The notes under the pieces are model-generated. The model was not told the DNA's origin. It did no database searches and saw only the letters and a list, made by a program, of their open reading frames with translations. The translations under genes and the position numbers were made by a program. Below are positions 2,279 through 25,330 of a stretch of DNA of 25,837 bases, piece by piece (positions within the stretch are counted from its first letter, which is position 1; each line of letters begins with the position of its first letter). Location of the stretch: IMG/VR virus record IMGVR_UViG_3300031976_000823, positions 1 through 25,837 of that record; one strand, given 5' to 3'. Source of the stretch: a virus.

Positions 2279-2295
2279 GGAAGACCGCAAAGCTT

Positions 2296-7092: not shown

Positions 7093-7418
7093 AGCTGGGG
7101 AAGCTGGACCGGCGCATCCGTATCGAACGAGATGGGGCGCCGACGCATAACGGCTATCAGAACGTGTCCGGCGAGCCGGTGACGGTGGCGACGGTCTGGG
7201 CGCAATGGATGCCCGGCGTGGGTAGGGAGCGGTTTGCCAACGATGAAAACGTCGCGACGGCGCCGGGCGTGTTTGTCATCCGCTGGTCGAGCCGGGTTCG
7301 CGACGTCAGCCCGCTGGACCGCGTCGAGTTCGAGGGTCGCATGTATGACATCGGCCGTGTCGAGGAAATCGGCCGGCGGGTGGGGTTGCGGATCTTTGCG
7401 ACGGCGAGGGCAGAATGA
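7089..7418 (+). CDS. Head-closure / head-tail adaptor protein
   Basis: This gene encodes a probable SPP1 gp16-type head closure protein that plugs the portal-connector channel and receives the tail. It is 109 residues, normal for the family. It shows the typical opening GKLDRRIRIER, the VWAQWMPGVGRERF segment and the closing VEFEGRMYDIGRVEEIGRR, where family members read D-ri--dG-+y-I--v. The ATG overlaps the previous stop (ATGA), and its own stop overlaps the next start in the same way. Confidence 0.88.
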   Translation: MKLGKLDRRIRIERDGAPTHNGYQNVSGEPVTVATVWAQWMPGVGRERFANDENVATAPGVFVIRWSSRVRDVSPLDRVEFEGRMYDIGRVEEIGRRVGLRIFATARAE

Positions 7419-8703: not shown

Positions 8704-9135
8704 ATGATCGGTGAGGTCACATTCGACGCTGGCGGGAGTCGCTACATTCTGTTCCTCGGCACGGCCGCCCAGTGCCGTCTTGAGGAAATGCACGACAAGG
8801 GCTTCTTCGCGATCGTCGAAGAGGCGCTGCCCAACGTCACGCCGGCCATGCTGGGCAACCAGACGCTGATGGCGGAAGTGGCGCGAGGCGTGCGGATCTC
8901 GAAGCTGCGCGATTTGGCCTGGGCCGCGCTTCTCAAGCATCAGCCGTCCATGACGTTGCGCGATGTCGAAGACCTTGCCGATCTTATCGGCCCGCAGCGC
9001 TTCGGCGAGCTACTGGGCAAGACGATCGCTGCCGGGCAGGGGCAGGCAGAGCAAGAGGAGGCTGGCCATGACGCCGCCCAGGGAAAGCCCGGCCGAAAAA
9101 AGACTGGCGGGCAAAAACGGGCTGGGCAGAGCTGA
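8704..9135 (+). CDS. Tail assembly chaperone G (zero-frame product)
   Basis: This gene encodes the likely G-type tail assembly chaperone that binds the tape measure during tail building. The 143-residue protein starts with a beta strand set (GEVTFDAGGSRYILFLG), then helices (RLEEMHDKGFFAIVEEAL, LRDVEDLADLIGPQRFGELL). It ends in a Gln/Lys/Gly-rich tail that looks like linker rather than folded protein. It sits between tube and tape measure. GGAGA at 8692-8696 supports ATG 8704. The last ten codons lie beyond a slippery heptamer at 9096-9102. A share of ribosomes probably shifts there and makes a longer GT protein of about 245 residues. Confidence 0.8.
   Translation: MIGEVTFDAGGSRYILFLGTAAQCRLEEMHDKGFFAIVEEALPNVTPAMLGNQTLMAEVARGVRISKLRDLAWAALLKHQPSMTLRDVEDLADLIGPQRFGELLGKTIAAGQGQAEQEEAGHDAAQGKPGRKKTGGQKRAGQS
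9096..9102 (+). other. Slippery heptamer A AAA AAG, -1 frameshift site
   Basis: In the frame of the G gene the codons read CGA AAA AAG, so the heptamer A AAA AAG is in exact X XXY YYZ phase. This is the most efficient known bacterial -1 slip sequence. AGGGA at 9080-9084 lies 11 bases upstream and could act as a stimulating internal Shine-Dalgarno, as at dnaX. After the slip, reading continues GAC TGG CGG from 9102 without a stop to 9440. Confidence 0.8.
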
Positions 9136-9440
9136 TCTTGCAATGGGTGGCGGCGGGTCAAGTCGCCACCGACTTCTGGGACCAGTCTCAGGCCAGCTTT
9201 GCCGCCATTCTTCGCGGGTCGGCTGAGCGCTCCAGGCGTGAATATGAGCGCACGCTGTGGGGCGCCTGGCAGGGTGAGCGGTTCACGCGAACCGACAGGC
9301 TGAAACGCTGGAAGGTCTATCAGCGTGAGGTCCGCAGGACCGAACCGAAGCGCCGCCAGACCGATGCTGAGAAACTCGACGTTTTTCGTTCGCTACAGGC
9401 TGCGAGCGGCCTGAAAATCACGCGCCTCAAGAAACGGTAG
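9102..9440 (+). CDS. T part of the GT tail-assembly chaperone (-1 frame)
   Basis: This reading frame is best read as the extension made after a -1 shift at 9096-9102, giving a fusion of 133 G residues plus 112 T residues. The T part continues DWRAKTGWAELILQWVAAGQ, then FWDQSQASFAAILRGSAERS and a basic C-terminus (KITRLKKR). It resembles the helical T domains of alphaproteobacterial tail chaperones. If it were a separate gene, its only early start would be TTG at 9138, with no good ribosome site, three bases past the G stop. That lack of a start supports the frameshift model. In lambda the T domain binds tube protein and brings it to the tape measure complex. Confidence 0.75.
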   Translation, partial: DWRAKTGWAELILQWVAAGQVATDFWDQSQASFAAILRGSAERSRREYERTLWGAWQGERFTRTDRLKRWKVYQREVRRTEPKRRQTDAEKLDVFRSLQAASGLKITRLKKR

Positions 9441-9448
9441 GATCGACA

Positions 9449-12400
9449 ATGCAGACGCTGCTCGCATCGCTCGTCGTCTCGATGAGCGTGAAGGACGCTG
9501 CCTATAAGGCGGGCATGGCGACCGCGCGCCGTGAGGCTGCAAAAACCGAGCAGGATCTGAGCCGCGCCGCAGGCGGCATGGGTCACGCGATGCAGGGGGC
9601 GGCGCGGCAGGTGAACGATGCCGCCATCGGTATGGCCGAAAGTCTTGCCAATGCCGCCCGGCAAGTCCAGCGCACCGGGATTGTCATGACGGCGGCAATC
9701 AGCGCGCCGCTGCTGCTAATCGGCAAGCGCACGAAGGATACGGCCGCGTCCTTTGAGACATCGTTCAATCGTGTTCGGGCAGCAATGCTGTCGGCCTCGC
9801 CGGAACAACTGGACAAGTTGAACGCCGCCGCGCTGCGGATGGGGCCAGCGTTCGGCAAGTCCGCCAGCGATGCAGCATTGGCTATGGAGATGCTGGCCAA
9901 GAACGGGTTGTCGGCCTCCCAGATCCTGGGCGGTGCGCTGACATCCGCGATGACACTGTCGGCGGTCGGCGTGGCCGATCTGTCTGCGTCGGCCGACCTG
10001 ACGACGGACATTATGCAGCAGTTTGGCAAGAGCGCGGGGCAATTGCCGGACGTCGTGAACAAGGTGACGGGGGCGCTGGACGCGTCCAAGCTGTCCTTCG
10101 ACGACTATCGACTGGCGATCGGCCAAACTGGCGGCGTCGCCGGCGGACTGGGGTATTCGTTCGAGGATACGAACGTCGCGCTGGCCGCGACCGCATCGCT
10201 ATTCGCCAGCGGATCGGATGCCGGCACCAGCTTCAAGACATTCCTGACCGCGCTGGCCTCGCCGTCGAAAGAAGCGGCAAAGCAAATCGGTGCGCTGAAC
10301 CTGCAATTCTTCAACGCTGACGGCTCAGCCCGATCGTTGGGCGAGGTGGCCGATGAGCTTCGCCTGAAGCTGTCGGATCTGAGCGATCAGCAGAAGGGTG
10401 ATGCGCTTTCGACGATCTTCGGCAACGATGCGATGCGAACGGCGATCGCGTTAATGCAGCAAGGCCGTCAGGGTCTGGAAAATGTCGGCAAGGCGATCGA
10501 CGCGGTGCAGGCGAAGGACAAGATCAGCATTCTGCAGGCGGGCGATGAAGCGGCATCCCAGCGGTTGAGCGCCGCCCTGGATGTGCTGGCGATCAAAATG
10601 GGCGAGGTGTTGCTGCCTATTTCGGTTGCGACGAAGGACGCCTTGACGGGTATCGTTCAGTCGCTGTCCTCGCTGTCTCCGGCCTTTTACGTGGCTGGAG
10701 CCAGCGCGGCGCTGCTCGCGAGCGCTGTTGGGCCGCTTGTCACCGTCATCGGCTACACCCTCCCGCTGGCAGCGGCGCTTCTGGCCAACCGGCTTACCGG
10801 GGTTGGCGCTGTTGTCGGGTTCATAATCAATCCGATCGGCATGCTCGTCCGCACGGTCGGCGCGCTGCTGGTTGCGCGGGGCGCGTCGGTCGCGGTCGGT
10901 CTGCTGGGCGCGCGCATTGCGGCGATGGCGACGCCGATCGGGCTGGTTATTGGCGCCGCGACGATCTTGATCCCGCTGCTTTCAAAGATCGGGTTGGAAG
11001 AGGAGTTGATGGCCCGACAGGCGGGCCTTGCAAACAAGGTGCATGATCGCATGACGTCGATCGTCGAACGCCTTGCGACGGCAACCGGCAAGGCGGCGAC
11101 TGAAGCGCGGGGCCATGCCAAAGCCCTCATTGCAACGGCGCTGGCGGCGCAACAGGCGCAGCTGCAGGTCGCTCGTCTTGCTGTCGCCAACTATAATCGA
11201 GCTGTCGCCGACGAGCGAGCTGCGGCTGCGAACCTGACGCCTGGCGGCCTGGTGGTTCGTGAAGCTGCACGGCAGCGCCGCCAGAGCGCCGCCACGAACG
11301 CCTGGGAGCAGATCGGGCTGCTGCGTCAGGGAAATGTGGACATCGCGACCGTGCGGCAGGCGATCGAAGCCAGCGCGATTTCGGGCAATATCGGGACCGG
11401 GGGTTCGCCGATGGCTGAACCCGATGAAACAGACAAGTCCACCAGCGGACGCGGCGACGCCGCGAAATCCGCAGCCGATGCGCAGCGCGCGAACGCACAG
11501 TATCTGGACGATCTTGGGCGCTTGCGTGTTGCCGAAATGGACGCACTGGCAGACCTGACCGAAGGCTACCGTGCCCGATATCGAGCGGACGTCGCCAACC
11601 TTGAAGAGGAAATGGCGTCTTATCGCCGACAAGTGGCGCTGGATGATGAGTTGACGGCGGCGCAGCGCGCGGAACTGGTGGCAGCGAAGGAGCGTGAGAT
11701 CGGGCAGCGGCGTTATGTCGTCGAAAGCCGTATGAACGCTGCCGAAGCGAACGAGCGTTTCGATCTGATGCGCGCGGCGACAGAGGGGGAGGCGGAGCTG
11801 GTCCGTCTCGGCCTGGATATGGCGGAGACCGCCGCCGAGCGCCGGGACGGTGAACTTCGTCTCCTGGCGTTGCAGCGTAAGCTGGAAGAGGCGGAACTGG
11901 ACCGCGTGATTGCCGTGGCGGCGATTGGCAGCGTGGAGGCAGAAAACGCGAGGCGCGCAAAGGAGCGCCTGGGCGCTGCCTATAGCGCCCGGGAAGCGCG
12001 GCTGCGTCGCGACACCGCAGGCCCAGGCGAGCAATATCTGCGCGCGATCGATCTGTCGGCAGGGCAGCTTCGGGAAGCGACTGAGGACATGGGTGTGTCG
12101 GCCTTGGTGCGCTTCAACGACACGCTTGCAGATACGGCGGTCGGGTTCCTGAAGATGGGCGGGGTGGCCGGGCAAGTGTTCAACCAATTATTCGCCGATC
12201 TTATGCGCCTGCAGCTGCAGAAGGCAGTGCTCCAGCCCATCGCGAGCTTCCTGTTCGGCGGTGGTGGCGGCCTGACGACGGCAACGGCGCAGGGCGGGGT
12301 AACCAGCTTTCTTGATAGCTACATCCCTTCGCTGAACTTTGGCGGCGGTAAGGCATCAGGCGGGCGTGTCAGTCCGCGCAGTTGGTATATGGTCGGCGAG

Positions 12401-12628
12401 AACGGCCCCGAACCGTTCGTGCCGGACACGGCCGGGACGATCATCCCCAATTCCGGCCTGAAGAAGCTGAGCGGCGGCGCACCTGTCATCCAAATCGTTG
12501 CCGACGAAGGCGCGATGTTCGTTCCGCGCGTGCAGTCGATAAGCGGCGAAGTTTCGGTTCAGACGGTCGGCGCCGCGAACGCGTCGATGGTGCGGATGCA
12601 GCGCCGGAGGCTTGGCCGTGGCGGTTGA
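9449..12628 (+). CDS. Tail tape measure protein
   Basis: This gene encodes a 1059-residue tape measure that sets tail length and enters the cell envelope at infection. The PhageMin_Tail core spans about 90-335 (SFETSFNRVRAAM, LSASADLTTDIMQQFGKSAG, LGYSFEDTNVALAATASLFA, TIFGNDAMRTAIALMQQG). Hydrophobic segments at about 409-518 (PLVTVIGYTLPLAAALLANR, IGLVIGAATILIPLL) may cross the inner membrane for DNA entry. Long Ala/Glu/Arg-rich coiled coils follow (about 660-860). The C-terminus has the WYMVGENGPEPFVPDTAGTI motif seen in lambda H-like proteins. ATG 9449 has TAGGA just upstream. Its end overlaps the next gene by 11 bases. Confidence 0.95.
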   Translation: MQTLLASLVVSMSVKDAAYKAGMATARREAAKTEQDLSRAAGGMGHAMQGAARQVNDAAIGMAESLANAARQVQRTGIVMTAAISAPLLLIGKRTKDTAASFETSFNRVRAAMLSASPEQLDKLNAAALRMGPAFGKSASDAALAMEMLAKNGLSASQILGGALTSAMTLSAVGVADLSASADLTTDIMQQFGKSAGQLPDVVNKVTGALDASKLSFDDYRLAIGQTGGVAGGLGYSFEDTNVALAATASLFASGSDAGTSFKTFLTALASPSKEAAKQIGALNLQFFNADGSARSLGEVADELRLKLSDLSDQQKGDALSTIFGNDAMRTAIALMQQGRQGLENVGKAIDAVQAKDKISILQAGDEAASQRLSAALDVLAIKMGEVLLPISVATKDALTGIVQSLSSLSPAFYVAGASAALLASAVGPLVTVIGYTLPLAAALLANRLTGVGAVVGFIINPIGMLVRTVGALLVARGASVAVGLLGARIAAMATPIGLVIGAATILIPLLSKIGLEEELMARQAGLANKVHDRMTSIVERLATATGKAATEARGHAKALIATALAAQQAQLQVARLAVANYNRAVADERAAAANLTPGGLVVREAARQRRQSAATNAWEQIGLLRQGNVDIATVRQAIEASAISGNIGTGGSPMAEPDETDKSTSGRGDAAKSAADAQRANAQYLDDLGRLRVAEMDALADLTEGYRARYRADVANLEEEMASYRRQVALDDELTAAQRAELVAAKEREIGQRRYVVESRMNAAEANERFDLMRAATEGEAELVRLGLDMAETAAERRDGELRLLALQRKLEEAELDRVIAVAAIGSVEAENARRAKERLGAAYSAREARLRRDTAGPGEQYLRAIDLSAGQLREATEDMGVSALVRFNDTLADTAVGFLKMGGVAGQVFNQLFADLMRLQLQKAVLQPIASFLFGGGGGLTTATAQGGVTSFLDSYIPSLNFGGGKASGGRVSPRSWYMVGENGPEPFVPDTAGTIIPNSGLKKLSGGAPVIQIVADEGAMFVPRVQSISGEVSVQTVGAANASMVRMQRRRLGRGG

Positions 12629-14023: not shown

Positions 14024-14442
14024 TGACCGAGATCGAACGTCGCGTCGTGGCAGTAAATGCGACCCGCGCTCGCTTTGCGGGCCGCGCCTTTGCATGGGGA
14101 ACGGTCGACTGCGCGAAGGTCGTCGCATGGCACCTGCGCAAGATGGGGCATCGCATCGGCATCTCGAAGGCGGGTTCCTATTCGACGGCTCTTTCCGCCA
14201 AGCGCGCCCTGGCTCGCTGGGGCGTGGAAACGCTGACCGAGGCGCTCGACAAGGCGATGCTTGATCGTATCCCGCCAGCAGCTGCTTTGGCCGGCGACGT
14301 GGTCCAGCTGCCCGGCACAGACGCCTTTGACGCTCTGGCGGTGGTTGCCGGCAACGGCGCGGTTCTCGGCTTCCACGAGGATAGCGACACGCTGGAAGTC
14401 GTGCGCTTGGACGTGGTCCCCCTCGCGGCGTGGCGCGCATGA
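14023..14442 (+). CDS. NlpC/P60-like tail protein (DUF6950-type)
   Basis: This 139-residue protein sits just before the J-like gene, where many siphophages encode an NlpC/P60 cysteine peptidase that opens peptidoglycan during entry. The candidate nucleophile is Cys30 in AFAWGTVDCAKVVAWHL, matching the F-WG--DC motif. Later, AGDVVQLPG mimics the GD-V strand. The next segment reads DALAVVAGNG where active NlpC enzymes carry His-Val-Gly, so the catalytic histidine seems absent. It may be a structural relative or use another residue. The start overlaps the previous stop (TAATG), and its end overlaps the J-like start (ATGA). Confidence 0.75.
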   Translation: MTEIERRVVAVNATRARFAGRAFAWGTVDCAKVVAWHLRKMGHRIGISKAGSYSTALSAKRALARWGVETLTEALDKAMLDRIPPAAALAGDVVQLPGTDAFDALAVVAGNGAVLGFHEDSDTLEVVRLDVVPLAAWRA

Positions 14443-17400
14443 GCAAGATGCTGAGAACCGCTGGGATGGTCGTTGGCGCGGCCGCCCTGATCGCCACCGG
14501 GGTCGGCGCGGTCGCCGGCGCGGCAGCGGCCGCGAAGATCGCGGGAGCGATTGGCGTTTCGAGTCTTGCGAAGCTGGCCGCGACCGCGTCGGTCATTTCG
14601 GCGGGCCTCGGGGCTGCGGGATCGCTCACGGCCAAGCCGCCGACCAACGAGCGTCAGGGCCTCCAGCTCAGCTTCAAGATCGATCCCGGTGCGCCCATTC
14701 CATATGCCATCGGGCGCACGGCGGTCGGGGGCACGGTGGTCTATCGTGAGACCTACGGCACCGATAATCATTACCAGACCTATTTTGTGGCCCTGTCGCT
14801 AGGCCCCATTGCGGGAATCGACCAGCGCCTGATTGATCGCGCCGCAATCACGTTCGCCGGCACGTCGGCGCTGGGCTATTACAACCGGTGGATGTGGCAG
14901 GATGTCCAGCTGGGCGCACTGCCTGAAGCGCGCGCGCTGAGCCACGGTATCGCATCGCCGCCGTTCGGCTCAATCCCGGCACAGGTGCCGGGCTGGAGCG
15001 CTCAGCATCGCATGTCGGGTTATGCCGCAGCATCGCTGACGATGCTGTTCGATACGAAGGCGCGGCGCTACCAGAACGGCGAACCGCTGCCGGCATGGGT
15101 GCTGCGCGGTAACCTGGTGTGGGATCCGCGCCTAGACAGCACCTATCCCGGCGGGTCCGGTCCCTGTCGCTGGAACGATCCCGCGACGCATGTTTATTCT
15201 GAAACCCCGGCGCTTCACGGTTTGAAGTGGCGGATCGGCGTCTTCCATAACGGCAAGAAGGTTATGGGCGTCGGGGCACCCATCGACCTAATCGATGTCG
15301 CGTCGATCGTCGAAGCTGCAAACGTGCAGGAGGCCAATGGGTGGAAGGTCGGCGGCGAGCTGAACAGCGAGATGGATCGCTGGGAAGCGCTTAAGCTGAT
15401 TGAGGAGGCGGGCGGTGCTGAGCCGATTCCGAGCGGCGCGCGAATGGCGACGCTGCAGAAGATGCCGCGCGTCCCGATTGGCACGATCCGCGCCGCCGAT
15501 ATCATAGAGGCGCGCTCGATCCCGGCCATGAAGCCGCGCCGCGAGCGTATCAACGGCTATCGTGCGCGGTTCCGCAGCGAGGCGCATGGTTGGGAGATGA
15601 TCCCGATCGATATCGTTCAGGTGGCTGATTACGTCACTGACGATGGTGGAGAGCGCACGGGCAGCGGCGACTTTGGCCTAGTTCAGAACGCCGATCAGGC
15701 AGGCAGTCTGGCTGCGTATAAGGTTTTCGACAGCCGCGAGATCGGCCCGATCGAGCTGACCCTGAAGCCCCGGTTTATTGGTTATCGCCTAGGCGATTGC
15801 CTGTCGATGGAGGCGGATGAGACGGGGCTTTCCGGCAAGCTGTTGATCGTTCGCGGGCGATCGATCGATCCGGAGACCGGTCGCGTCACCATGACGTTCG
15901 AGACCGAAACGCCGGAAAAGCACCCGGCAGCGCTGGGCCAGACGGGGGCCGTGCCGCCTGTGCCCACGCTGACCTTCGCTCCCGATGTCGCACCAGCGCC
16001 TTCGGTCAGCGGTTGGGATGCGAGTGCTTTCGTCTGGGAGGACAGCGGCTATTCCGAACCGGCTATCGTAGTAACAGGAGCCGCCGACAACTCTAACGCC
16101 GAGAATGTCGTTTTTGAGATCCGTGAGGTTGGCGGAGATTGGGTCGATCCTTCAATCGATCCTCCCGACGCCACGCGGCGGTTGTTTCGTCGTCTGCGCT
16201 CGAAAACGAATTATGAAGTCGCGGTCAGCTACAAGGTGCGCGGCACGATTGGGGACCGGCTCGTTCTGGGTCCAATTGTCACCCCGGAGGTTCGTCAGCC
16301 TGAAGCCTTCACCGTCGGATCGCACGGCAACTCGGCGATCGTACCCGGCCACTATCTGCACGGCTTGCGCAAGCAGGACGGCACGCCGATCGCGACCGAT
16401 TACAGGCGCTCTTATACCGCGTGCTATTACAGCCCCGATACCGGTGCATGGACAAGTCGATCGTTCGACGTCTTCGGCGGCGGCGCAATCGACTATGGCT
16501 ATGGCGCGGGCATCGGCAACGGCGACGCCACAAGTGGCAGCGATGCCGGCTCGATGGCGCGCTATCTGAACGCAATCCCGGCCGGACTGCCGGTCGTCGT
16601 CTTCACGGCCGACGAACCCGCACAGCTTCGCCATCAAGGCGGCCTGCTCGAAGCGATGTATCGTTGCGGCGCGAGCGCGAGGAAGTTCGGCGGAGACGGC
16701 AACGCATTTCCCTACCGGGCGGCTTACATCCTGGTGGGCACCGCCGGCGCGGGCGAAGGCAACGCAGCGATCGAGCGCGTGCAGGAACCGGGCGTGGACG
16801 GAAGCCCGAATGCGTGGCTGATGACGAGCTTCACCATCGTCAACGGGGTGCTTCAGCTGAGCGCGCGCGACGGATCGGACGGGCGCGACGGGACCGACGG
16901 CCTGCCGGGGGCGGACGGTGCGGATGGGCAGACGTCCTATATCCATTACGCCTATGCCAATTCACCCGACGGGCAGGTCGATTTCACCACCGGAGCGCCG
17001 GGCAACCGGGCTTTTGAAGGGGTCTACGCCGACTTCGTGGAAGCAGACAGCGGCAACCCGGCCGCCTATACCTGGCGCGAATATAAGGGGCCGCCGTTTG
17101 GCATGGCGACGCGCGGCACCGCGATCGTGGCCGGCAACCAGGTCATCAAGGGTGAGGGCGGGGCTGCGGATTGGGACGCGGACGCCTATTCGACGGTCGG
17201 CTTCCGTGGTTCGGCCAAAATGTCCTGCCGCTTCGCCGCCGGCAGCTATGCCATGGCCGGCCTGAACACCGACCCGACCGCCGACACATCTTATACGTCG
17301 ATCGACTTCGCCTGGTATTATCAGCCCGAGCAGAACGTGATGTATGCGTTTGAGTCTGGCGTAAACGCCGCCAGTCTGGGCACCTATGATCCCAGTGCCA

Positions 17401-18848
17401 ACTACGCCATCGAATATGACGGGGTCACGGTAACCTATACGGCCAATGGCGTACCGAAGCGGCAGGTCTATGTCGGCCCCGACCGCACCTATTATTTCGA
17501 CAGTTCGTTTCTGCTGGCCACCTCCCGCATCACCGATATCGAGTTCAAGGCGGGGTCGCAGCGCCCGGCTGGCCTGACGCTGGTGCCCGCGACAGGCGCG
17601 ACGATTACCGGCGCCGCAAGCGCGCGGATCTACGGCGCACCCGGCGGATGGGGGGCAGGCAAGGCGAGTTCGCTGGAAACCTTCAGCGGGGGTGCGGTAG
17701 CGGAGTGGACGGTCGCGCGTTTGGACAGTGCCAATGTCGGCGCCGGGCTGGCGCAGAACCCCGAGAATGATCTTGGCTTTAACACCATCACCTTCGCGCT
17801 GCTGACGCTGGATAACGGGAATACCGGCGCATACGTCAACGGCATCAACGTCTCGGGCGGGCCGAGCGTCCCGCTAGATCAGCCCGTGCGCTGCAAGGTC
17901 GCTTATGATGGCAAGCGCTGGGTGCGCTGGTATGTGAACGGCACCGAGTTCTATGCCTATGAATGGGGCGAGCAGCCTGATCCGCTGAAGTTCTCGGTTG
18001 CACTGGCTTCGCTGGATCCGACGGTGACTGACATCGCCTTCAGCAAGGCTGGTACGAATGGTCAGGATGGGGCGAACGGGCAGGACGGAACGAACGGCGC
18101 CGATGGTGCGGACGGCACCGACGGTTTCATCGTCGATACCGAAACGCCAGTCTTTGTCATCCCGGTCTATTCGAGCGGTGCGATCAAGCCGGGCTGGTCG
18201 GGCGGCGTCGGCACGATCAAGCTGACCAAGGGCGGCGTCGTCATCGCCGCCAGCAGCTACAGCGTTGCCAATAATCAGGACGTCACCGGGCTGGCGCTCG
18301 CCGGTAACCAGTTCAGCTTCACCGGCCTGGCGGATGACGCCGGGCAGTTCGATGTCCGGGCGGTTTACAACGGCCAGACCTATTCGCGCACGATTTCGGT
18401 CAAGAAGGTCTATGACGGGGAGGCGGCTTACAAGGAGTCAGCCTCGACAAGCGGGACAATCTCGGCCGGGCCGCTGCCGATCACCGGTGCGACCGTTGTG
18501 CCCAGCGCGCGCGGGTGCACCGTGTCGTCGACATTTTCCTACGTCAATTCCGCTCCCGGCAGCTTTGTGCAGTGGAGGGGAAGCCTGTCGATCTACTGGC
18601 GCAACATCACTGATAATGGCCCGTGGAACCTGTTGGAGACGGCCATCGGCTCAACCGCCAGCGTCGTGAATGTGGGGACCGCGCAGGAACCGGAATATCA
18701 ATATACCAACGGATCGGTATCGGCTGCGGCCGACTTTACGGCGCCGGTGGGCGACAAGGAGATCGGCTTTGAGGCTCGGCTAAGCCGCGATGTGGGCAGT
18801 GGATCCGTGAACGCCCGTGGCGGTGTGAAGCTGGAGGTCAGATCGTGA
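14439..18848 (+). CDS. J-like tail tip / receptor-binding protein with lectin-like modules
   Basis: This gene encodes the 1469-residue central tail-tip protein that probably binds the host surface. A hydrophobic N-terminal stretch (about 10-60) precedes the J-type hub region (LSFKIDPGAPIPYAIGRTAV; SLGPIAGIDQRLIDRAAITF; hub part to about 500). An FN3-like domain lies at about 501-621. About 655-785 fits an ILEI-like fold (AYILVGTAGAGEG at its end). A collagen-like GxD run is at 810-833. Two lectin-like jelly-roll modules follow at about 902-1041 and 1064-1203, then a second collagen-like run at 1205-1229 (NGQDGANGQDGTNGADG), an Ig-like domain at about 1230-1330 and a beta-rich C-terminus. ATG 14439 overlaps the previous stop; GTG 14430 is less likely. 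Confidence 0.9.
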   Translation: MSKMLRTAGMVVGAAALIATGVGAVAGAAAAAKIAGAIGVSSLAKLAATASVISAGLGAAGSLTAKPPTNERQGLQLSFKIDPGAPIPYAIGRTAVGGTVVYRETYGTDNHYQTYFVALSLGPIAGIDQRLIDRAAITFAGTSALGYYNRWMWQDVQLGALPEARALSHGIASPPFGSIPAQVPGWSAQHRMSGYAAASLTMLFDTKARRYQNGEPLPAWVLRGNLVWDPRLDSTYPGGSGPCRWNDPATHVYSETPALHGLKWRIGVFHNGKKVMGVGAPIDLIDVASIVEAANVQEANGWKVGGELNSEMDRWEALKLIEEAGGAEPIPSGARMATLQKMPRVPIGTIRAADIIEARSIPAMKPRRERINGYRARFRSEAHGWEMIPIDIVQVADYVTDDGGERTGSGDFGLVQNADQAGSLAAYKVFDSREIGPIELTLKPRFIGYRLGDCLSMEADETGLSGKLLIVRGRSIDPETGRVTMTFETETPEKHPAALGQTGAVPPVPTLTFAPDVAPAPSVSGWDASAFVWEDSGYSEPAIVVTGAADNSNAENVVFEIREVGGDWVDPSIDPPDATRRLFRRLRSKTNYEVAVSYKVRGTIGDRLVLGPIVTPEVRQPEAFTVGSHGNSAIVPGHYLHGLRKQDGTPIATDYRRSYTACYYSPDTGAWTSRSFDVFGGGAIDYGYGAGIGNGDATSGSDAGSMARYLNAIPAGLPVVVFTADEPAQLRHQGGLLEAMYRCGASARKFGGDGNAFPYRAAYILVGTAGAGEGNAAIERVQEPGVDGSPNAWLMTSFTIVNGVLQLSARDGSDGRDGTDGLPGADGADGQTSYIHYAYANSPDGQVDFTTGAPGNRAFEGVYADFVEADSGNPAAYTWREYKGPPFGMATRGTAIVAGNQVIKGEGGAADWDADAYSTVGFRGSAKMSCRFAAGSYAMAGLNTDPTADTSYTSIDFAWYYQPEQNVMYAFESGVNAASLGTYDPSANYAIEYDGVTVTYTANGVPKRQVYVGPDRTYYFDSSFLLATSRITDIEFKAGSQRPAGLTLVPATGATITGAASARIYGAPGGWGAGKASSLETFSGGAVAEWTVARLDSANVGAGLAQNPENDLGFNTITFALLTLDNGNTGAYVNGINVSGGPSVPLDQPVRCKVAYDGKRWVRWYVNGTEFYAYEWGEQPDPLKFSVALASLDPTVTDIAFSKAGTNGQDGANGQDGTNGADGADGTDGFIVDTETPVFVIPVYSSGAIKPGWSGGVGTIKLTKGGVVIAASSYSVANNQDVTGLALAGNQFSFTGLADDAGQFDVRAVYNGQTYSRTISVKKVYDGEAAYKESASTSGTISAGPLPITGATVVPSARGCTVSSTFSYVNSAPGSFVQWRGSLSIYWRNITDNGPWNLLETAIGSTASVVNVGTAQEPEYQYTNGSVSAAADFTAPVGDKEIGFEARLSRDVGSGSVNARGGVKLEVRS

Positions 18849-19432: not shown

Positions 19433-19579
19433 ATGAAACGTGCGCTTCTGAGCGCGGCGGCTGCCGCATTGTGCCTGCTTGCCGCGTGCACCGATCCTGG
19501 CCCCAGCCCGTCGCCCGACGGCAATCTGGTCTCCTGTGAGGGTGACGCGTGCTTCTATGACGACGGCACTGAAAAATGA
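19433..19579 (+). CDS. Small lipoprotein, 48 residues
   Basis: This gene has a strong ribosome site (AGGAG at 19421-19425, seven bases before ATG 19433). The protein starts MKR, continues with a hydrophobic Ala/Leu core and reaches a lipobox LAAC at residues 16-19. A mature part of about 30 residues follows: Pro/Ser-rich, then SCEGDACFYDD with a possible disulfide between Cys34/35 and Cys39/40. The stop overlaps the next start (ATGA at 19576-19579). Small phage lipoproteins are known in superinfection exclusion and as outer spanins. Here a separate outer spanin exists, so exclusion or an envelope role is more likely. The function is unknown. Confidence 0.75.
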   Translation: MKRALLSAAAAALCLLAACTDPGPSPSPDGNLVSCEGDACFYDDGTEK

Positions 19580-20100
19580 GTGTCGCGACAGCGTCCGTGG
19601 CGCAAGGGCCACTGACGGTCGCGCCGCCCAGCTTCGACGGCCATGGCTGGCTGGTCGTGATCAACCTGGCTGTCATGACCGCCGCGTGCGTGCTGGCCGC
19701 GATGATGGCGATCGACCTGGTGCGTCATATCTGGGGCCGTCGGCATCGTGACCGGGTAACGCACCCGGTCACGATCTGGCGATCGACGGCGGTGTGCTTC
19801 GCGATCGGCATCGCGCTGCGCGCCGGGGCCGAGGCGGCGGTGCTATGGAACTGGAACCCGCTGGATCCAGCGTCGACCGCGTCGTTCCTGATTGCCAAGC
19901 GCCTGGTCGACCCGATCGCCATGGCGTTCGGGCTGGCCGGGCTGGCGCTGACCTATCTGTCGGCGCGCGGCATGGTCGAGCAGCTGCGCAAGCGGCCGTT
20001 CCCGATCAACATGTGGGCCAACCTGCCCATGCTGAAGCGTCCGGCGGCGATCGTCGCGATCTGGATGGTGGCGTCGATCGGCGTCGTGGTGACGCGGTGA
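19576..20100 (+). CDS. Small membrane protein with four predicted segments
   Basis: This 174-residue protein has four likely membrane segments (about 25-49, 68-90, 108-130, 156-173) and a basic loop HIWGRRHRDR after the first. I do not recognise its family. It overlaps the lipoprotein stop on one side and the next membrane protein on the other (GTGA at 20097-20100). The pair precedes the amidase, so it could be a holin, an antiholin or an envelope protein of the lysis cassette. Four segments are more than in most class I or II holins, so confidence in a holin role is low. Confidence 0.7.
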   Translation: MSVATASVAQGPLTVAPPSFDGHGWLVVINLAVMTAACVLAAMMAIDLVRHIWGRRHRDRVTHPVTIWRSTAVCFAIGIALRAGAEAAVLWNWNPLDPASTASFLIAKRLVDPIAMAFGLAGLALTYLSARGMVEQLRKRPFPINMWANLPMLKRPAAIVAIWMVASIGVVVTR

Positions 20101-20498
20101 TCTGGCGCGTGGGGGCAACGATCGGTGCGCTGGTGCCGGTCGCGAGCGCGCTGGGCAGCAATGAGGGGGCAATGGTGACCAGTTCGCAGCCGGAGGTGTG
20201 GCACTTCTTTGGCTACCCGTTCGAGGTGGGGTCGATGCTGGCGGGGCTGATGGCGTGCCTGGCGGTGCGCTTCTACGTCACCCAGACCGACCAGGCGCAC
20301 TATCGCTGGACGGTCGACATGGCGGTGCTGGCCATTTCGCTGATGTTCACCGGCGGGCTGATCGTCACGCATCGGCCGGAACCATTCACGGCCATGATGA
20401 TGGGGACCGGCATCGGCGCGCTGGGCGCCGGCATCATCTCGATCGCGCTGAAATGGGTGCGGCGGTTCGCGCCGGAGGATGAAGTCAAGCCGGGCTGA
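20097..20498 (+). CDS. Small membrane protein, candidate holin
   Basis: This 133-residue protein has three clear membrane segments (about 43-62, 72-91, 98-119) and a weaker first one (about 4-20). It ends in a charged tail (KWVRRFAPEDEVKPG). GTG 20097 is used because it overlaps the previous stop. The same frame stays open upstream only as a shadow of the other membrane gene. Its place directly before the amidase, its size and its charged C-terminus fit a holin that opens the inner membrane for the lysin. Family recognition is lacking, so this rests on context. Confidence 0.7.
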   Translation: MIWRVGATIGALVPVASALGSNEGAMVTSSQPEVWHFFGYPFEVGSMLAGLMACLAVRFYVTQTDQAHYRWTVDMAVLAISLMFTGGLIVTHRPEPFTAMMMGTGIGALGAGIISIALKWVRRFAPEDEVKPG

Positions 20499-20522: not shown

Positions 20523-21023
20523 ATGCTAAAGCAACCGGCGTGGCACCGTGCCGCGCAGGGCGCCGTCGCGCGCCCGATCACCGACCTGATTGTCCATTGC
20601 ACCGCGACGATCGAGGGTCGCGACCACAGCGCCGCCGAGATCCGTGGATGGCACAAGCGGCAGGGCTGGCGCGATATCGGCTATCACTTCGTCGTGCGCC
20701 TCGACGGCACGATCGAGGTCGGCCGCCCGCTGGCGCAGGCGGGCGCGCACGTCAGCGGGCACAACGCCAAGTCGATCGGCATCACTTATGTCGGCGGTCT
20801 CGACCGGCAGGCGAAGCCGAAGGACACGCGCACGCCCGAACAGAAGGCCGCGCTGGTCGAGCTGCTGCGCGCGCTGTCGCAGCGCTGGCCGAAGGCCCGC
20901 ATCGCCGGTCACCGCGACTATTCGCCCGACAAGGATGGCGACGGCAAGGTGGAGCCGCACGAATGGCTGAAGTCGTGCCCGTGCTTCGACGCGGTGCGCG
21001 AATATGCGTGGCTGACCGCGTGA
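20523..21023 (+). CDS. Endolysin: T7-type N-acetylmuramoyl-L-alanine amidase
   Basis: This is a zinc amidase (Amidase_2) that cuts the bond between MurNAc and L-Ala in peptidoglycan for host lysis. The 166 residues align by eye with T7 lysozyme: IVHCTAT (zinc ligand His25), EIRGWHKRQGWRDIGYHFVV with Tyr54, DGTIEVGRP, GAHVSGHNAKSIGITYVGG, then AGHRD (His130) and KSCPCFD (Lys150, Cys152). An inserted DKDGDGKVEPHEW loop (about 136-148) looks like an EF-hand-like acidic loop and may bind calcium. No signal peptide is visible, so it needs a holin. GAAAGG at 20511-20516 supports ATG 20523. The stop overlaps the spanin start (GTGA). Confidence 0.94.
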   Translation: MLKQPAWHRAAQGAVARPITDLIVHCTATIEGRDHSAAEIRGWHKRQGWRDIGYHFVVRLDGTIEVGRPLAQAGAHVSGHNAKSIGITYVGGLDRQAKPKDTRTPEQKAALVELLRALSQRWPKARIAGHRDYSPDKDGDGKVEPHEWLKSCPCFDAVREYAWLTA

Positions 21024-21451
21024 CCTGGTCCGCTGCGGGCGCGCTGCTGCGGCGCTTCTGGTGGGCGCTGCCGATCGCGGCGCTGGCGATCGCGCTGGTG
21101 CTGACCCGTGAGACACTGGCTGACCGGACGCTGACGCTGACCAATGAGCGCGCGGCGTGGAACGAGAGGCTGCGCACTGCCGAGGCCGCCAAGGTCGCGG
21201 CCGAGCGGCGCTATGCGATGCAGATCGCCCAGGCCGCGACGGCCTATGCCGACCGGCTCGCGGTGCGCGAACCGATCATCGTTCGATCCATCGATACCGT
21301 GAGGGAATATGCCCAGACTGATGCTGGCCGGGCCGTGTGCCTTGGCGCTGACCGCGTGCGCGGGATCGACGATCTCGACGCCGCCCTCTTTGCTCCAGAT
21401 CCCGCCGGTGCCGGCGGCGGCGCGGGTGCGGTGCCTGCCGACGCCCGTTGA
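21020..21451 (+). CDS. Inner-membrane spanin (Rz-like)
   Basis: This gene encodes the likely i-spanin, which spans the inner membrane and reaches across the periplasm to the outer spanin. The 143-residue protein has one N-terminal membrane helix (RRFWWALPIAALAIALVLT, about 11-29). A long, charged, coiled-coil stretch with little Gly or Pro follows (TLTNERAAWNERLRTAEAAK, then VAAERRYAMQIAQAA). GTG 21020 overlaps the amidase stop. The frame is open further back inside the amidase, but that part is a shadow. The C-terminus (residues 97-143) overlaps the outer spanin gene in another frame and is Gly/Ala-rich, as expected for a constrained overlap. Confidence 0.83.
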   Translation: MTWSAAGALLRRFWWALPIAALAIALVLTRETLADRTLTLTNERAAWNERLRTAEAAKVAAERRYAMQIAQAATAYADRLAVREPIIVRSIDTVREYAQTDAGRAVCLGADRVRGIDDLDAALFAPDPAGAGGGAGAVPADAR

Positions 21452-21572
21452 GCGACAACCCGACGGATCGGCCGCCAGTGCCGATGCCGAAGCAACCATC
21501 CGACAGGGGCGGATCGATCTCGCCGCCTGTGACGCGCGCCGCCAGCTGGCGGTCGACGCGTGGCCCCGTTGA
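21309..21572 (+). CDS. Outer-membrane spanin lipoprotein (Rz1-like), overlapping Rz
   Basis: This gene encodes the likely o-spanin. The 87-residue protein has a lipoprotein signal with lipobox LTAC at residues 14-17 (cleavage before Cys17). The mature part begins with Pro-rich sequence (STPPSLLQIPPVPAAARVRC), a hallmark of Rz1 proteins. It starts inside the i-spanin gene in the +1 frame and runs 121 bases past its stop, the partly embedded arrangement of Rz/Rz1 pairs. GAGGG at 21301-21305 is a close but usable ribosome site. Together with the inner spanin it fuses the two membranes at the last step of lysis. Confidence 0.83.
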   Translation: MPRLMLAGPCALALTACAGSTISTPPSLLQIPPVPAAARVRCLPTPVERQPDGSAASADAEATIRQGRIDLAACDARRQLAVDAWPR

Positions 21573-21591: not shown

Positions 21592-21975
21592 ATGGCAATA
21601 GACTCGATCCATCCGAACTCGCCCGGCCTCGATCGGACGCTGGCGTTTCGCGACACCCGATTGCCGGGCAATCAGCAGGCGGGCGTGGAATACACGCCCG
21701 AGCTGGCCGATATCGAAAAGGTCATTCGGATGACCGGTGCCGCAGCGAGCGTAGTTACAATTCCTGCCGATGCGACCACCGACTTTCCGATCGGAACGCT
21801 TCTGAGCGTAGCGCGGGATGGTGCTGGTAGCGTGTCGATAGCGGCGGCCGCAGGAGTAACCATCAACCGCGAGCCGGCCACACAGCCTTCAGTGGCAGCC
21901 CAGTACGGTCTTGTGAATCTGCGGAAAACAGCTGCCAATACCTGGGCGCTATTCGGTGCGGTGGCAGCGGCATGA
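21592..21975 (+). CDS. Small virion-associated structural protein
   Basis: This 127-residue protein has a beta-rich C-terminal domain: VVTIPADATTDFPIGTLLSV, GAGSVSIAAAAGVTINREPA, QYGLVNLRKTAANTWALFG. This pattern of alternating strands with G-G-V-I-a-gVt- is common as a repeat unit in phage tail and capsid-fibre proteins. The N-terminal 45 residues (HPNSPGLDRTLAFRDTRLPG) are probably a flexible anchor. TAGGAG at 21580-21585 supports ATG 21592. Its stop overlaps the SGNH-like gene start (ATGA), suggesting it carries or anchors the following appendage proteins. Confidence 0.75.
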   Translation: MAIDSIHPNSPGLDRTLAFRDTRLPGNQQAGVEYTPELADIEKVIRMTGAAASVVTIPADATTDFPIGTLLSVARDGAGSVSIAAAAGVTINREPATQPSVAAQYGLVNLRKTAANTWALFGAVAAA

Positions 21976-23564
21976 GGGGCGTTCTTCGTGCCGCACGACG
22001 GTCCACTAGGCCAATGCCCTTTGCGGAAGGTGCCCCCACGCCGACGCCGTCCCCAGGCGGCACGTCGGCCGCGCGCTACAGCTTCGCTGGAACGCGGTTC
22101 CGGCAGCCGACGAAGGCGGGAACCGTCAATTCCGGCAATCCCTATCAGGTGACGCAGTTCGCCTTTGCCACGCCAGATTATCAGCTGGCGGATCCGCGCT
22201 TTTTCTTCCAGACCTTCTACAATCTGACCAGCGGCGCGTCGACGCATGAAGTCGCGACGACGTCGCCGATCACGATCGAGGGCATGAGCTTCCTCCTCGA
22301 CGGCGTGTGGGTTCGCGCCGATCCCACGCTGTTCCCGATCACGATCGACCCGGCTGTCGATACGGTGGGCAAGCTGCTGCCTGCGTTCACGAACATCGCC
22401 CTGCCGGTGAACAGCCTGGTGCAGGCGCGTATCGCTTGGTTCGGTACCGGTGGGATGACCGTGCCGGGGCCAGAGACGACGTGGGGCAGCGGCGGCGAGG
22501 CCGCGCGTGGTGGCACCAGCTCGATGGCCGACTTCCTGACGAACGGGTCGAGCCTGAACAACTCCAACGCGACGACGATGCACCCGTCCATGATGGTGGC
22601 GAAGGGTGGCGATGGGCGGCCGGCGCTGCTGGCGATCGGCGACAGCATCGGCTTTGGCCAGAACTCGGGCGTCAACGGCGCAATGTTCAGCGCGCGCGGC
22701 GAATTCGGTTATCTCGGCACCGGCTTCGACAGCAACGCGTCGAGCAAGCGGATCCCGGTCTACAACATGTGCGTGCCCGGTCAGTCGCCGGGCAACTGGT
22801 CGACGCCCGCGAACATCGCCAAGAAATTGGCGTTGCTGCAGATGGTCATCGATGAGACCGGCGCTGCGCCGTGCGATGAGATCGTGAACCAGCATGGGAC
22901 GAATTCGATCAGTGGCACGTCTACGCTGACCCAGCTGCAAGACTGGACGCGCGCAACACTTGCAAACTTCCGGGGCGTGGTGGGCGAGGATATGCCCGCA
23001 ACCCAAGCCGAAATGATCGCCTATCCCGCCAGCTCGAACGGCTATGCCGATCTGGCTGGCCAGTCGGTCAACACCCAGAACGCTTATCCTGGCGGCGTGC
23101 GCTGGCAGTTCAACGCCAGCGTCGGCGGCGCGGATGGTCTGGGCGATCCGGCGGCGACGTTGCGCGCCGACGGCACCATCCAACACAGCTTCGCGCCCTG
23201 GCGCGAGGGCAGCTATGACACTGGCGCCAATCGCGACAAGCTGCGCATTCTGGAACCGCAGACGACGCTGGCGGCCGACTGGAGCAACGCCAGCAGCTTT
23301 TCGTCGGTGCTGCCATTCCAGGTCGGCGACTATGTCGTCGCGGCGGGCAGTTCGACCGAAGAGGCGATGGTCACGTCCGGGCCGAGCGGAACCGGCCCAT
23401 ATTCGCACGGCTCGGCGCTCCAGAGCTTTCCGCTGACCACGCTGCCGGCGGGCACGCCCATCCGGGCAACGATGCATGGCGGCGGGCTGCACCCGGGCAA
23501 GACCGGGCACGATATCTATGCGGCGTCAGTCGTCGCTTACAAGCAACAGCGGGGTTGGGCATGA
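21972..23564 (+). CDS. SGNH/GDSL hydrolase-like tail appendage protein
   Basis: This 530-residue protein has an N-terminal beta-rich part (about 35-205), perhaps a carbohydrate-binding or attachment domain, then an SGNH-hydrolase-like domain. Block I is LLAIGDSIGFG with Ser225. Block II may be Gly270 in CVPGQSP, block III is NQHGTNS with Asn311, and block V is LHPGKTGHD with His507. SGNH enzymes in phage tails remove acetyl groups from surface polysaccharides, so a similar role is inferred. Odd: the Asp normally three residues before the catalytic His is Gly504. ATG 21972 overlaps the previous stop and its own stop overlaps the beta-helix gene start (ATGA), so all three appendage genes are coupled. 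Confidence 0.8.
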   Translation: MRGVLRAARRSTRPMPFAEGAPTPTPSPGGTSAARYSFAGTRFRQPTKAGTVNSGNPYQVTQFAFATPDYQLADPRFFFQTFYNLTSGASTHEVATTSPITIEGMSFLLDGVWVRADPTLFPITIDPAVDTVGKLLPAFTNIALPVNSLVQARIAWFGTGGMTVPGPETTWGSGGEAARGGTSSMADFLTNGSSLNNSNATTMHPSMMVAKGGDGRPALLAIGDSIGFGQNSGVNGAMFSARGEFGYLGTGFDSNASSKRIPVYNMCVPGQSPGNWSTPANIAKKLALLQMVIDETGAAPCDEIVNQHGTNSISGTSTLTQLQDWTRATLANFRGVVGEDMPATQAEMIAYPASSNGYADLAGQSVNTQNAYPGGVRWQFNASVGGADGLGDPAATLRADGTIQHSFAPWREGSYDTGANRDKLRILEPQTTLAADWSNASSFSSVLPFQVGDYVVAAGSSTEEAMVTSGPSGTGPYSHGSALQSFPLTTLPAGTPIRATMHGGGLHPGKTGHDIYAASVVAYKQQRGWA

Positions 23565-24610
23565 CAAATCTGCAACAGCGCCTATCGGAGGCGAGCGACG
23601 GCGACGTTATCGATCTGGGCGGCGACACGCTGCCTTTTCAGCGGCTCGCCGGCTTGTCTTTTGTCGAGCCGGTGACGATTGCCAACGGCTCGTTGTCCGG
23701 CCTGATGGTCAGCGACTGCGCGGGGCTGATCTTCCTCGACGTCCACATGGTCGCTGACCCGACCGAGCTTTACGGCTATCGCTTCAGCGGATGCGAGCGC
23801 ATCAGGATCGACCGCTGCCGAGCGCAGAGTGACGACACGCTGCCGGTCGATCAGCAGCGGGTGACGCTGGTGTTCTTCGACGGATGTTCGGACGTGGCGG
23901 TTGAGCGCAGCGACTTCTCGCATGCGTGGCACGGGATTGAGCATCGCCGCACTACCCGCATCACGATCAGCGACAACCGCTTTCATCACCTGCGCACTGA
24001 CGGCATCCGTGGCGGCGGCATGATCGACGGGCTGATCGAGGGAAACGAGTTCCGCGACTTTTTCGGTGCGGGCGTGATCGGCACCAGCGGCGATCACTGC
24101 GACGCGATCCAGTTCTGGACCACCGAGCGCACCGGGCGCAGTTCCAACGTGACCATCCGGCGCAACGCTATCCGGCGTGGGGCGGGTCGGCTGCTACAGG
24201 GCATGCTGCTGGACGGCATCGACGGTCTGACGGTCGACGACAACCTGGCCATCGGCACAATGTGGAATGGGATCCTGATTGCCGGCTGCACCGGCGCGTC
24301 CGTCACGCGCAACAAGGTGCTGGGCGATCAGGGCCAGCCAAGCCGCCTGCGCGTGGTGTCGATGGACGCCGTGGCTGAGATGACCGGCAACATCGCAGAG
24401 TTCGAATTGCCGAAAGGCGCTGAGGTGCCCGGAGCGAATGAAATCGTCGGGCTGCTTTCAACTGACGACCTGAGCAGGATCGAGGCTGATTGGCTGGCGC
24501 CTGATCAGCCCCAGTTGCCGCCGCAGGACAGCCTCGACGCGATCAAGTCGGAACTGCGCGAGCTGCTGCCCAAGGTTACGGCGGTGCTGGCTCGGTTGGA
24601 GGCGCTGTAG
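23561..24610 (+). CDS. Parallel beta-helix tailspike-like protein
   Basis: This 349-residue protein shows a right-handed parallel beta-helix: short strand rungs repeat as in CAGLIFLDVHM, CERIRIDRCRAQ, CSDVAVERSDFS, TTRITISDNRFHHLRTDGIR, MIDGLIEGNEF, SNVTIRRNAI, DGLTVDDNLA and GASVTRNKV (about 50-260). The motif SGDHCDAIQFW (176-186) resembles the G-H-D-IQ turn in polysaccharide lyase-like helices. The last 35 residues form a likely coiled coil (LDAIKSELRELLPKVTAVLA) for trimer formation. Tailspikes with this fold degrade or bind surface polysaccharide; activity here is inferred. ATG 23561 overlaps the SGNH stop. Confidence 0.85.
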   Translation: MTNLQQRLSEASDGDVIDLGGDTLPFQRLAGLSFVEPVTIANGSLSGLMVSDCAGLIFLDVHMVADPTELYGYRFSGCERIRIDRCRAQSDDTLPVDQQRVTLVFFDGCSDVAVERSDFSHAWHGIEHRRTTRITISDNRFHHLRTDGIRGGGMIDGLIEGNEFRDFFGAGVIGTSGDHCDAIQFWTTERTGRSSNVTIRRNAIRRGAGRLLQGMLLDGIDGLTVDDNLAIGTMWNGILIAGCTGASVTRNKVLGDQGQPSRLRVVSMDAVAEMTGNIAEFELPKGAEVPGANEIVGLLSTDDLSRIEADWLAPDQPQLPPQDSLDAIKSELRELLPKVTAVLARLEAL

Positions 24611-24646: not shown

Positions 24647-25036
24647 TTATAGGGCACGGGCCGCTAGTGCGGCCCGCGCCGCGTCCGCGAGAAACCCGGA
24701 CCGGTTGGAGGCAACACGGTCGATGCGGGCCAGCAGGCCTTCGTCGATCGTAACCTGGACGCGCACTGCGCGGCCGGGGCGTTCACCGCGCACCAAAACG
24801 CGGCAAACCTCGACTGAACCCTCTTCAGGCTGGATCGCGTCGATATCCCCCGGCGCGGGGAGGGCATCGCCATGCTCGATTGAGACGGAAAGGTGGCCGT
24901 TCAGGGCTTCCTCTGCCCCCTCAACTGCTTCCTGCACGGATGCGCCGGCTGAGACGCAGCCCGGCAGGTCGGGGAAGTAGACGCCGAACCCTTCCGGGCC
25001 GCGCTCGACGATAGCTGGATAATAGACGGTCGTCAT
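24647..25036 (-). CDS. hicB: HicB antitoxin with RHH DNA-binding domain
   Basis: This gene encodes the antitoxin that blocks HicA and represses the operon. The 129-residue protein has the HicB partial RNase H-like fold: YYPAIVERGPEGFGVYFPDL (5-24), then PGCVSAGASVQEAVEGAEEA, and ALNGHLS. A C-terminal ribbon-helix-helix-like domain follows (VRVQVTIDEGLLARIDRVAS, then NRSGFLADAARAAL), the DNA-binding part. The minus-strand start at 25036 has AAGGAAGC seven bases before ATG. The frame extends further to 25213 but only across hicA. It follows hicA by 29 bases. The hicB ribosome site can pair with the end of hicA, so its translation may depend on hicA translation. Confidence 0.9.
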   Translation of the reverse strand: MTTVYYPAIVERGPEGFGVYFPDLPGCVSAGASVQEAVEGAEEALNGHLSVSIEHGDALPAPGDIDAIQPEEGSVEVCRVLVRGERPGRAVRVQVTIDEGLLARIDRVASNRSGFLADAARAALAARAL

Positions 25037-25039
25037 GAT

Positions 25040-25076
25040 CGCTTCCTTGGTGTGGATGCCGCTCCTTAAGGAAGCG
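25040..25076 (-). promoter_or_regulatory. hicA-hicB junction hairpin hiding the hicB ribosome site
   Basis: On the minus-strand mRNA the last codons of hicA (CGCTTCCTT, 25076-25068) are perfectly complementary to AAGGAAGCG (25048-25040), which contains the hicB Shine-Dalgarno. This nine-base pairing leaves a loop of 19 bases. A shorter local hairpin, GCCGC/GCGGC plus TCC/GGA around the hicA stop (25058-25078), competes with it. Ribosomes ending hicA would open the structure, a plausible translational coupling. Confidence 0.5.
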
Positions 25077-25254
25077 GCACCCCAGTCTGTTTGCTTATGC
25101 TCTTCAGTGTCCCGATTGGTAGGTCCGCTTTGGGGTGAGGGACCGTGGCCGTTCCGGACTTTGTTGGGTGCCGGAAGTGTTTGTGGCTTCCTGTCTGCCG
25201 AACCTCGAACCATCCATCTGCTTCAATCCGTCTGATGACTTCCCTACTTTTCAC
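25066..25254 (-). CDS. hicA: HicA toxin (mRNA interferase)
   Basis: This gene encodes a 62-residue HicA toxin, a small dsRBD-like mRNA endonuclease. Seen here are KSREVIRRIEADGWFEVRQT, then GSHKHFRHP with the catalytic His24 in G-S-H, and the conserved end TVPHPKADLPIGTLKSISKQ. Start is GTG at 25254 on the minus strand, giving the usual HicA N-terminus (VKSREV). GAGG lies just upstream. The frame extends back to 25338 but that part is upstream control region. The neighbouring DNA is visibly more AT-rich than the phage genes, which suggests separate acquisition of this module. Confidence 0.92.
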   Translation of the reverse strand: MKSREVIRRIEADGWFEVRQTGSHKHFRHPTKSGTATVPHPKADLPIGTLKSISKQTGVPLP

Positions 25255-25268
25255 TGCCTCGCTCCCTG

Positions 25269-25330
25269 TGTGTGTATTAGATACACACATATCTGCGGGG
25301 ATGCAAGAGGCGATACACATAAATACACAC
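25269..25330 (-). promoter_or_regulatory. hicAB operator: TGTGTAT repeats and candidate promoter
   Basis: Upstream of hicA lies a perfect 9-bp inverted repeat, TGTGTGTAT (25269-25277) and ATACACACA (25281-25289), with a three-base spacer. Two more ATACACA copies lie at 25313-25319 and 25323-25329. On the minus strand a candidate -10 TCTAAT (25281-25276) falls inside the inverted repeat; TTGCAT (25306-25301) is a possible -35 at a long 19-bp spacing. Binding of the HicB ribbon-helix-helix domain here would repress the pair. Confidence 0.6.

Follow-up and report, generated by a model that had tools for sequence, protein, structure and literature searches.

Most of what is known of SGNH deacetylases and beta-helix depolymerases in phages comes from those of enteric and Acinetobacter hosts. 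By analogy, strong precedents exist for SGNH deacetylases carried on virions: they act as receptor-binding proteins of Klebsiella prophages (PMC13123978), gp63.1 of Escherichia coli phage G7C is cited in that paper as a receptor-binding deacetylase of the same kind, the tailspike of Acinetobacter phage Aristophanes is another (PMC8471582), and an SGNH protein was found in virions of phage PhiPsa374 (PMC9796965). Here, we analyzed the 25,837-bp virus record IMGVR_UViG_3300031976_000823 (the window, meaning the whole stretch), which is part of a lambda-like siphovirus genome and carries three overlapping genes directly behind its lysis genes. On balance, and with modest confidence, we read this trio as a late exopolysaccharide (EPS)-processing cassette in which gene 1 encodes an adaptor, gene 2 an O-acetylesterase, and gene 3 a lyase-like beta-helix. 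The locus resembles the phage deacetylases above by predicted fold and proposed role, pairing a predicted SGNH fold that would act on O-acetyl groups of surface polysaccharide with virion-type parts. In contrast to those systems, the SGNH protein of the window has a gene of its own downstream of the lysis genes, has a small virion-type partner encoded separately, and carries an N-terminal domain resembling a carbohydrate-binding module (CBM). Among the papers searched, none described an SGNH/beta-helix cassette directed at EPS in a Sphingomonas phage.

The gene layout, the protein families, the conserved residues, the recurrence of the pair, and the fold of a relative were computed directly. 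The trio was confirmed as open reading frames at positions 21592 to 21975, 21972 to 23564, and 23561 to 24610 of the plus strand, joined by ATGA overlaps at 21972 to 21975 and 23561 to 23564. Gene 3 starts at the ATG at 23561, the TTG at 23555 being merely the mechanical first start. This arrangement suggests translational coupling at both overlaps. Only 20 nucleotides (nt) separate gene 1 from the preceding Rz1-like gene, no promoter-like site was found between positions 20400 and 25400, and the genes that follow lie on the opposite strand; the trio is therefore most likely transcribed as part of the late transcript. A first-pass annotation had proposed such an overlapping unit behind the lysis genes and apart from the J-like gene, led by a small structural protein and completed by an SGNH-like and a beta-helix protein. 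The overlaps, the short gap, and an overlapping pair in a Sphingomonas prophage bear out the arrangement, and the evidence below supports the identity of each member.

Gene 2 (21972..23564, plus strand) encodes a 530-amino-acid (aa) protein that resembles SGNH carbohydrate esterases, with a CBM-like N-terminal domain at about residues 35 to 200 and an SGNH domain at about 207 to 530. No Pfam, PHROG, or NCBIfam model matched it, and a sequence search of the PDB returned no SGNH match; the SGNH-like label derives from conserved residues and from the fold predicted for a relative. When the gene 2 and gene 3 proteins were used as single queries against viral and genome contigs, no match was returned, and alignment queries were needed to recover relatives. 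Those of gene 2 comprise 21 Rhizobium phage records (27% identity), 55 viral contigs, and 26 bacterial contigs from Rhizobium, Agrobacterium, Sphingomonas, and other Rhizobiales. The SGNH residues Ser225 (block I), Gly270 (block II), Asn311 (block III), and His507 (block V) are all present. In a census of 32 aligned family members, Ser, Asn, and His are kept in every member and the block II Gly in 31. The Ser motif reads GDSI in the window, and an Asp precedes the Ser in all 32.

The AlphaFold model of a Rhizobium phage relative, built with the family alignment (L012; predicted local distance difference test [pLDDT] score of 87), has as its best solved matches in Foldseek (about 1e-12) the acetyl xylan esterases PbeAcXE (7TOG/7TOH) and CspAcXE (7TOJ), together with a polyvinyl alcohol esterase. 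Against PbeAcXE and CspAcXE, the VIA Z scores are 23.5 to 23.8, with a root mean square deviation (rmsd) of 3.4 over 327 to 347 residues that span both the CBM-like and the SGNH domain, and the next-ranked fold matches drop to Z of about 10; the CBM domain of 7TOK matches the L012 model with Z of 9.3. Among predicted viral proteins, the matches include ones named minor tail protein, tail fiber, and SGNH hydrolase. The two-domain architecture of the L012 model is shared with the FjoAcXE-like acetyl xylan esterases, of which PbeAcXE binds its substrate at the interface of the CBM-like and SGNH domains and which carry a GNSI motif at the catalytic Ser as their family signature (PMC9105624). Compared with these enzymes, identity is 12 to 15%, the window has GDSI rather than GNSI, and its triad Asp position is occupied by Gly. 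The sequence family of gene 2 itself includes, at 27% identity, SGNH proteins from the Rhizobium phages RHph_Y1_11, N1_10, B1VFA, and RL38J1, some of which are annotated as lysophospholipase L1-like esterases. We rejected the name lysophospholipase for gene 2 because carbohydrate esterases make up most of the fold matches.

Two further observations concern these relatives. Residues 436 to 507 of the L012 model, inserted before the catalytic His, resemble a phage tail tube domain (9n71; Z of 10.7, rmsd of 1.9, 72 residues). In several Rhizobium phages (L003, L005, L006, L016, L061, and L062), the SGNH gene lies amid genes for the head and for packaging; it overlaps the portal gene in L005 and L016, whereas in L003 and L006 it comes after major capsid genes, and it is possible that these phages carry a capsid-borne esterase.

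Gene 1 (21592..21975, plus strand) has a clear Shine-Dalgarno sequence (AGGAGCTGACAATG) and encodes a 127-aa small virion-type beta-domain protein, the probable adaptor for the SGNH protein. Its PHROG matches are 8780 (minor tail protein, 9.9e-19), 18179 (virion structural protein, 7.5e-11), 21510, and 21978, and the region of these virion-protein PHROGs that aligns is their C-terminal beta domain. In the Rhizobium phages L012 and L003, the gene 5' of the SGNH gene shares a single base with the start of the latter and also matches PHROGs 18179, 21510, and 21978. Pairwise comparison with phmmer did not match gene 1 to the other genes found upstream of SGNH genes, and the link among them runs solely through the shared PHROGs. 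In Sphingomonas locus L069 and genome G315, the SGNH gene is preceded by an 87- to 88-aa tail fiber protein of phrog_12296 (E values of 7e-16 and 2.5e-15). In the Sphingomonas prophage L151, a phrog_12296 domain (6e-11) forms the N-terminal part of a single 840-aa protein with the SGNH protein. This fusion was seen in L151 only, and the window has gene 1 as a separate overlapping gene; it argues well, if indirectly, for cooperation of the small protein with the SGNH protein on a tail structure. The small gene in front of gene 2, with its virion PHROGs, and the L151 fusion thus support, indirectly, a virion location for the gene 2 product, which is probably virion associated. Gene 1 also has a low codon-position GC bias, unlike its neighbors, which are marked as coding, and its PHROG matches are strong; on such sequence features, it may be a recent arrival.

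Gene 3 (23561..24610, plus strand) encodes a 349-aa right-handed beta-helix protein of a family found in sphingomonad EPS clusters. It matches Pfam Beta_helix above the cutoff (6.4e-13) and, weakly, a tail spike PHROG (phrog_2234, 2.8e-7); PDB sequence searches gave weak beta-helix matches only, and no match was found among 50,697 phage records at 1e-5. Relatives of gene 3 occur in 49 of the 397 sphingomonad genomes drawn, and the best of them sit amid EPS genes, some near HlyD-type secretion genes, with RTX repeats in those checked (L115, L116, and L117). Identity to these EPS-cluster proteins is 30 to 37%, and the alignment runs from the first residues of gene 3, beginning at the helix cap. 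The gene 3 motifs RTDGIRGGG and GDHCDAIQFWT correspond to the family motifs RTDG(I/V)RGGG and GDHxDAIQxWT. In contrast to the EPS-cluster proteins, gene 3 lacks RTX repeats, as judged by the absence of a Pfam HemolysinCabind match, and has no type I secretion neighbors. The welan lyase WelR (PMC7899989) can be compared with the EPS-cluster beta-helix proteins by analogy. A phylogenetic tree places gene 3 within the EPS-protein clade with support of 100/99, on a long branch. We rejected as unproven that the beta-helix protein of G315 is its closest relative, as the tree leaves the order within the clade undecided; an insertion before the GDH motif shared by the two is only a hint of closeness.

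Beyond the EPS clusters, the gene 3 family is present in 12 viral contigs and follows Rz-like lysis genes in L122 and L126. Beta-helix proteins with a DHPDAIQ motif end the late genes of uncultivated phages in the viral contigs L122, L126, L128, and L130, several with signal-peptide-like starts, and these may possibly form a class of lysis-timed EPS enzymes. The C terminus of gene 3 is leucine rich (positions 24520 to 24607; DSLDAIKSELRELLPKVTAVLARLEAL), a similar short tail is found in the phage relative L124, and the tail could form a short trimerizing coiled coil.

Support that goes beyond the first-pass annotation comes from the host side, where a single Sphingomonas EPS cluster holds relatives of both enzymes and has an O-acetyltransferase gene near the SGNH gene. 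In genome G315, the SGNH relative has 48% identity to gene 2 and is one of the two closest found, a relative in G520 being equally close; the beta-helix relative has 35% identity to gene 3 and lies about 9 kb away in the same cluster. This locus also contains genes for Wzz, Wza-type export, Wzy, a flippase, glycosyltransferases, exosortase/EpsI functions, and a hexapeptide O-acetyltransferase, the last about 600 nt from the small tail-fiber-type gene that precedes the SGNH gene. The claim of a sphingan substrate was rejected as unproven, this being an exosortase-type EPS locus (XrtV/EpsI-type genes) rather than a proven sphingan locus. Tentatively, the phage may hold viral copies of a matched EPS esterase/beta-helix pair, passed from host to phage or from phage to host, which would first deacetylate and then cleave the polysaccharide of that locus. 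In the G315 cluster (L115, positions 1244 to 3084), the tail-fiber-PHROG gene overlaps the SGNH gene with no other phage genes seen, and the two are possibly a domesticated phage pair. The G520 relative (L150, reverse strand, about 8907 to 10595 of the reversed locus; 47 to 48% identity) has a lipoprotein-type start, a TP-rich linker, and trehalose/glycogen-type genes as neighbors, and is apparently a cellular surface version.

The pair and its position recur in other phages. In the Sphingomonas prophage L152 (genome G422), SGNH (31% identity) and beta-helix (25%, E value of 2e-11) genes overlap by 4 nt, at positions 10694 to 10697, as genes 2 and 3 do in the window, and lie behind a muramidase gene and membrane-protein genes. 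At such identities, the pairing would have persisted through deep divergence or arisen twice. In L151, the second prophage of G422, endolysin and Rz-like genes precede the SGNH gene, and Rz/Rz1-like genes often precede it in Rhizobium prophages as well. Prophages L155 and L158, whose J proteins are related to that of the window (48% and 44%), have unrelated GDSL-type proteins in the slot, matching Pfam Lipase_GDSL_2 (one above and one just under the cutoff) and the lipase phrog_6102. Given these layouts, esterases repeatedly occupy the slot behind the lysis genes. The third gene of L158 (526 aa, with a signal-peptide-like start) was proposed as a glycoside hydrolase by eye only; it has no Pfam or PDB match and was not counted. 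The related J proteins, together with the relatives in L152 and G315, also support the earlier suggestion of a sphingomonad-type phage with Sphingomonas-like hosts.

In the late region, the J-like gene is followed by tail, membrane-protein, amidase, and Rz/Rz1-like genes and then by the trio. The tape measure gene spans positions 9449 to 12628, and the J-like gene (14439 to 18848) stands apart from the trio. Two membrane-protein genes (19576 to 20498) lie 5' of an amidase endolysin gene (20523..21023, plus strand; Amidase_2 in Pfam, 5.1e-16; phrog_822, 2.2e-58), which is itself 5' of the cassette. An Rz-like spanin frame, recognized by its form (about 21021 to 21451), overlaps the Rz1-like lipoprotein gene (21309..21572, plus strand), which had no profile match and was assigned as the outer-membrane spanin by its form and its likeness to positions 7011 to 7298 of Sphingomonas L066. 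Just beyond the cassette, on the minus strand, lie genes for a HicB-like antitoxin and a HicA toxin (24647 to 25269; Pfam, 1.6e-21 and 1e-21), and prophage L158 has a similar-looking HicAB pair beyond its own esterase slot.

Regarding virion location, catalysis, substrate, and division of labor, we infer the following. Gene 1 would be a small virion-type adaptor through which the gene 2 product is attached to the virion. Gene 2, as a carbohydrate O-acetylesterase of the SGNH type that also has a CBM-like domain at its N terminus, would deacetylate the host surface polysaccharide at contact. Gene 3, as a polysaccharide lyase-like beta-helix, would cleave or grip the same polysaccharide, either bound to the virion or freed at lysis. 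Several results weigh against this EPS-processing cassette. The AlphaFold model of gene 2 itself is poor (pLDDT of 43) and was excluded from fold searches. The SGNH relatives of Rhizobium phages mostly lack a neighboring EPS-type beta-helix and, compared with the window, often lie in head genes or beside other pectin-lyase-fold proteins. The triad Asp position, three residues before the His, is Gly504 in gene 2 and is Asp in only 14 of the 32 aligned members. Although gene 3 shares a right-handed parallel beta-helix with depolymerase tailspikes, no N-terminal virion-anchoring domain was found on it by alignment, and beta-helix relatives in L121, L122, L123, L126, L130, and L152 have signal-peptide-like starts. 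The first-pass annotation had suggested a two-part polysaccharide-processing appendage. A deacetylase-type enzyme beside a polysaccharide-processing or -binding beta-helix stands, and a polysaccharide-processing cassette is likely; "appendage" is not established for the beta-helix, because signal-peptide-like starts occur in several of its phage relatives and gene 3 has no anchor.

These same features of gene 3 underlie the main rival, in which the enzymes are soluble, are freed at burst, and loosen EPS for the spread of progeny. This suits the beta-helix especially and may fit it alone, and the cassette or its relatives do lie directly behind lysis genes in the window, L122, L126, and L152. 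Against it, genes 1 to 3 of the window have no signal peptide, and gene 1 and its counterparts belong to virion-type PHROGs, one of them fused to an SGNH protein; as an account of the whole trio, we regard release at lysis as possible but doubtful. The substitution at Gly504 raises a different alternative, that gene 2 has lost its esterase activity and forms, with the beta-helix, a receptor-binding protein that only binds the polysaccharide. An Asp three residues before the His is usual in SGNH hydrolases but is not strictly defining. Catalysis by gene 2 may be weak or lost given this substitution, and that of the beta-helix hangs on the weak matches of its family profile to alginate lyases (E values of 0.005 to 0.02). 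However, gene 2 retains the Ser, Gly, Asn, and His, the beta-helix retains its motif residues, and the Asp position varies across a large family (D/E/S/T/G/V/I), so Gly504 is no one-off loss; binding without catalysis is accordingly unlikely. Least probable is that the trio are morons that alter the EPS of the lysogen and exclude other phages. The cassette ends the late block and adjoins the HicAB pair, and chromosomal copies occur, the one in G520 having a lipoprotein-type start, but the 20-nt gap to the lysis genes, the lack of a promoter-like site in the region searched, the lack of signal peptides on the window proteins, and the virion-type partner gene all speak against lysogenic conversion.

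The single parts of this EPS-processing cassette resemble known phage tools, whereas their pairing and their kinship to a host EPS locus look new. The paired unit, the recurrent slot, the fusion in L151, and the EPS cluster that holds relatives of both enzymes together make a testable case for a two-step attack on the slime layer of an alphaproteobacterium. They also assign a likely function to a sizable family of phage proteins, so far without a name, from rhizobial and sphingomonad phages, and the cassette would yield a candidate esterase and a candidate lyase for Sphingomonas polysaccharides.

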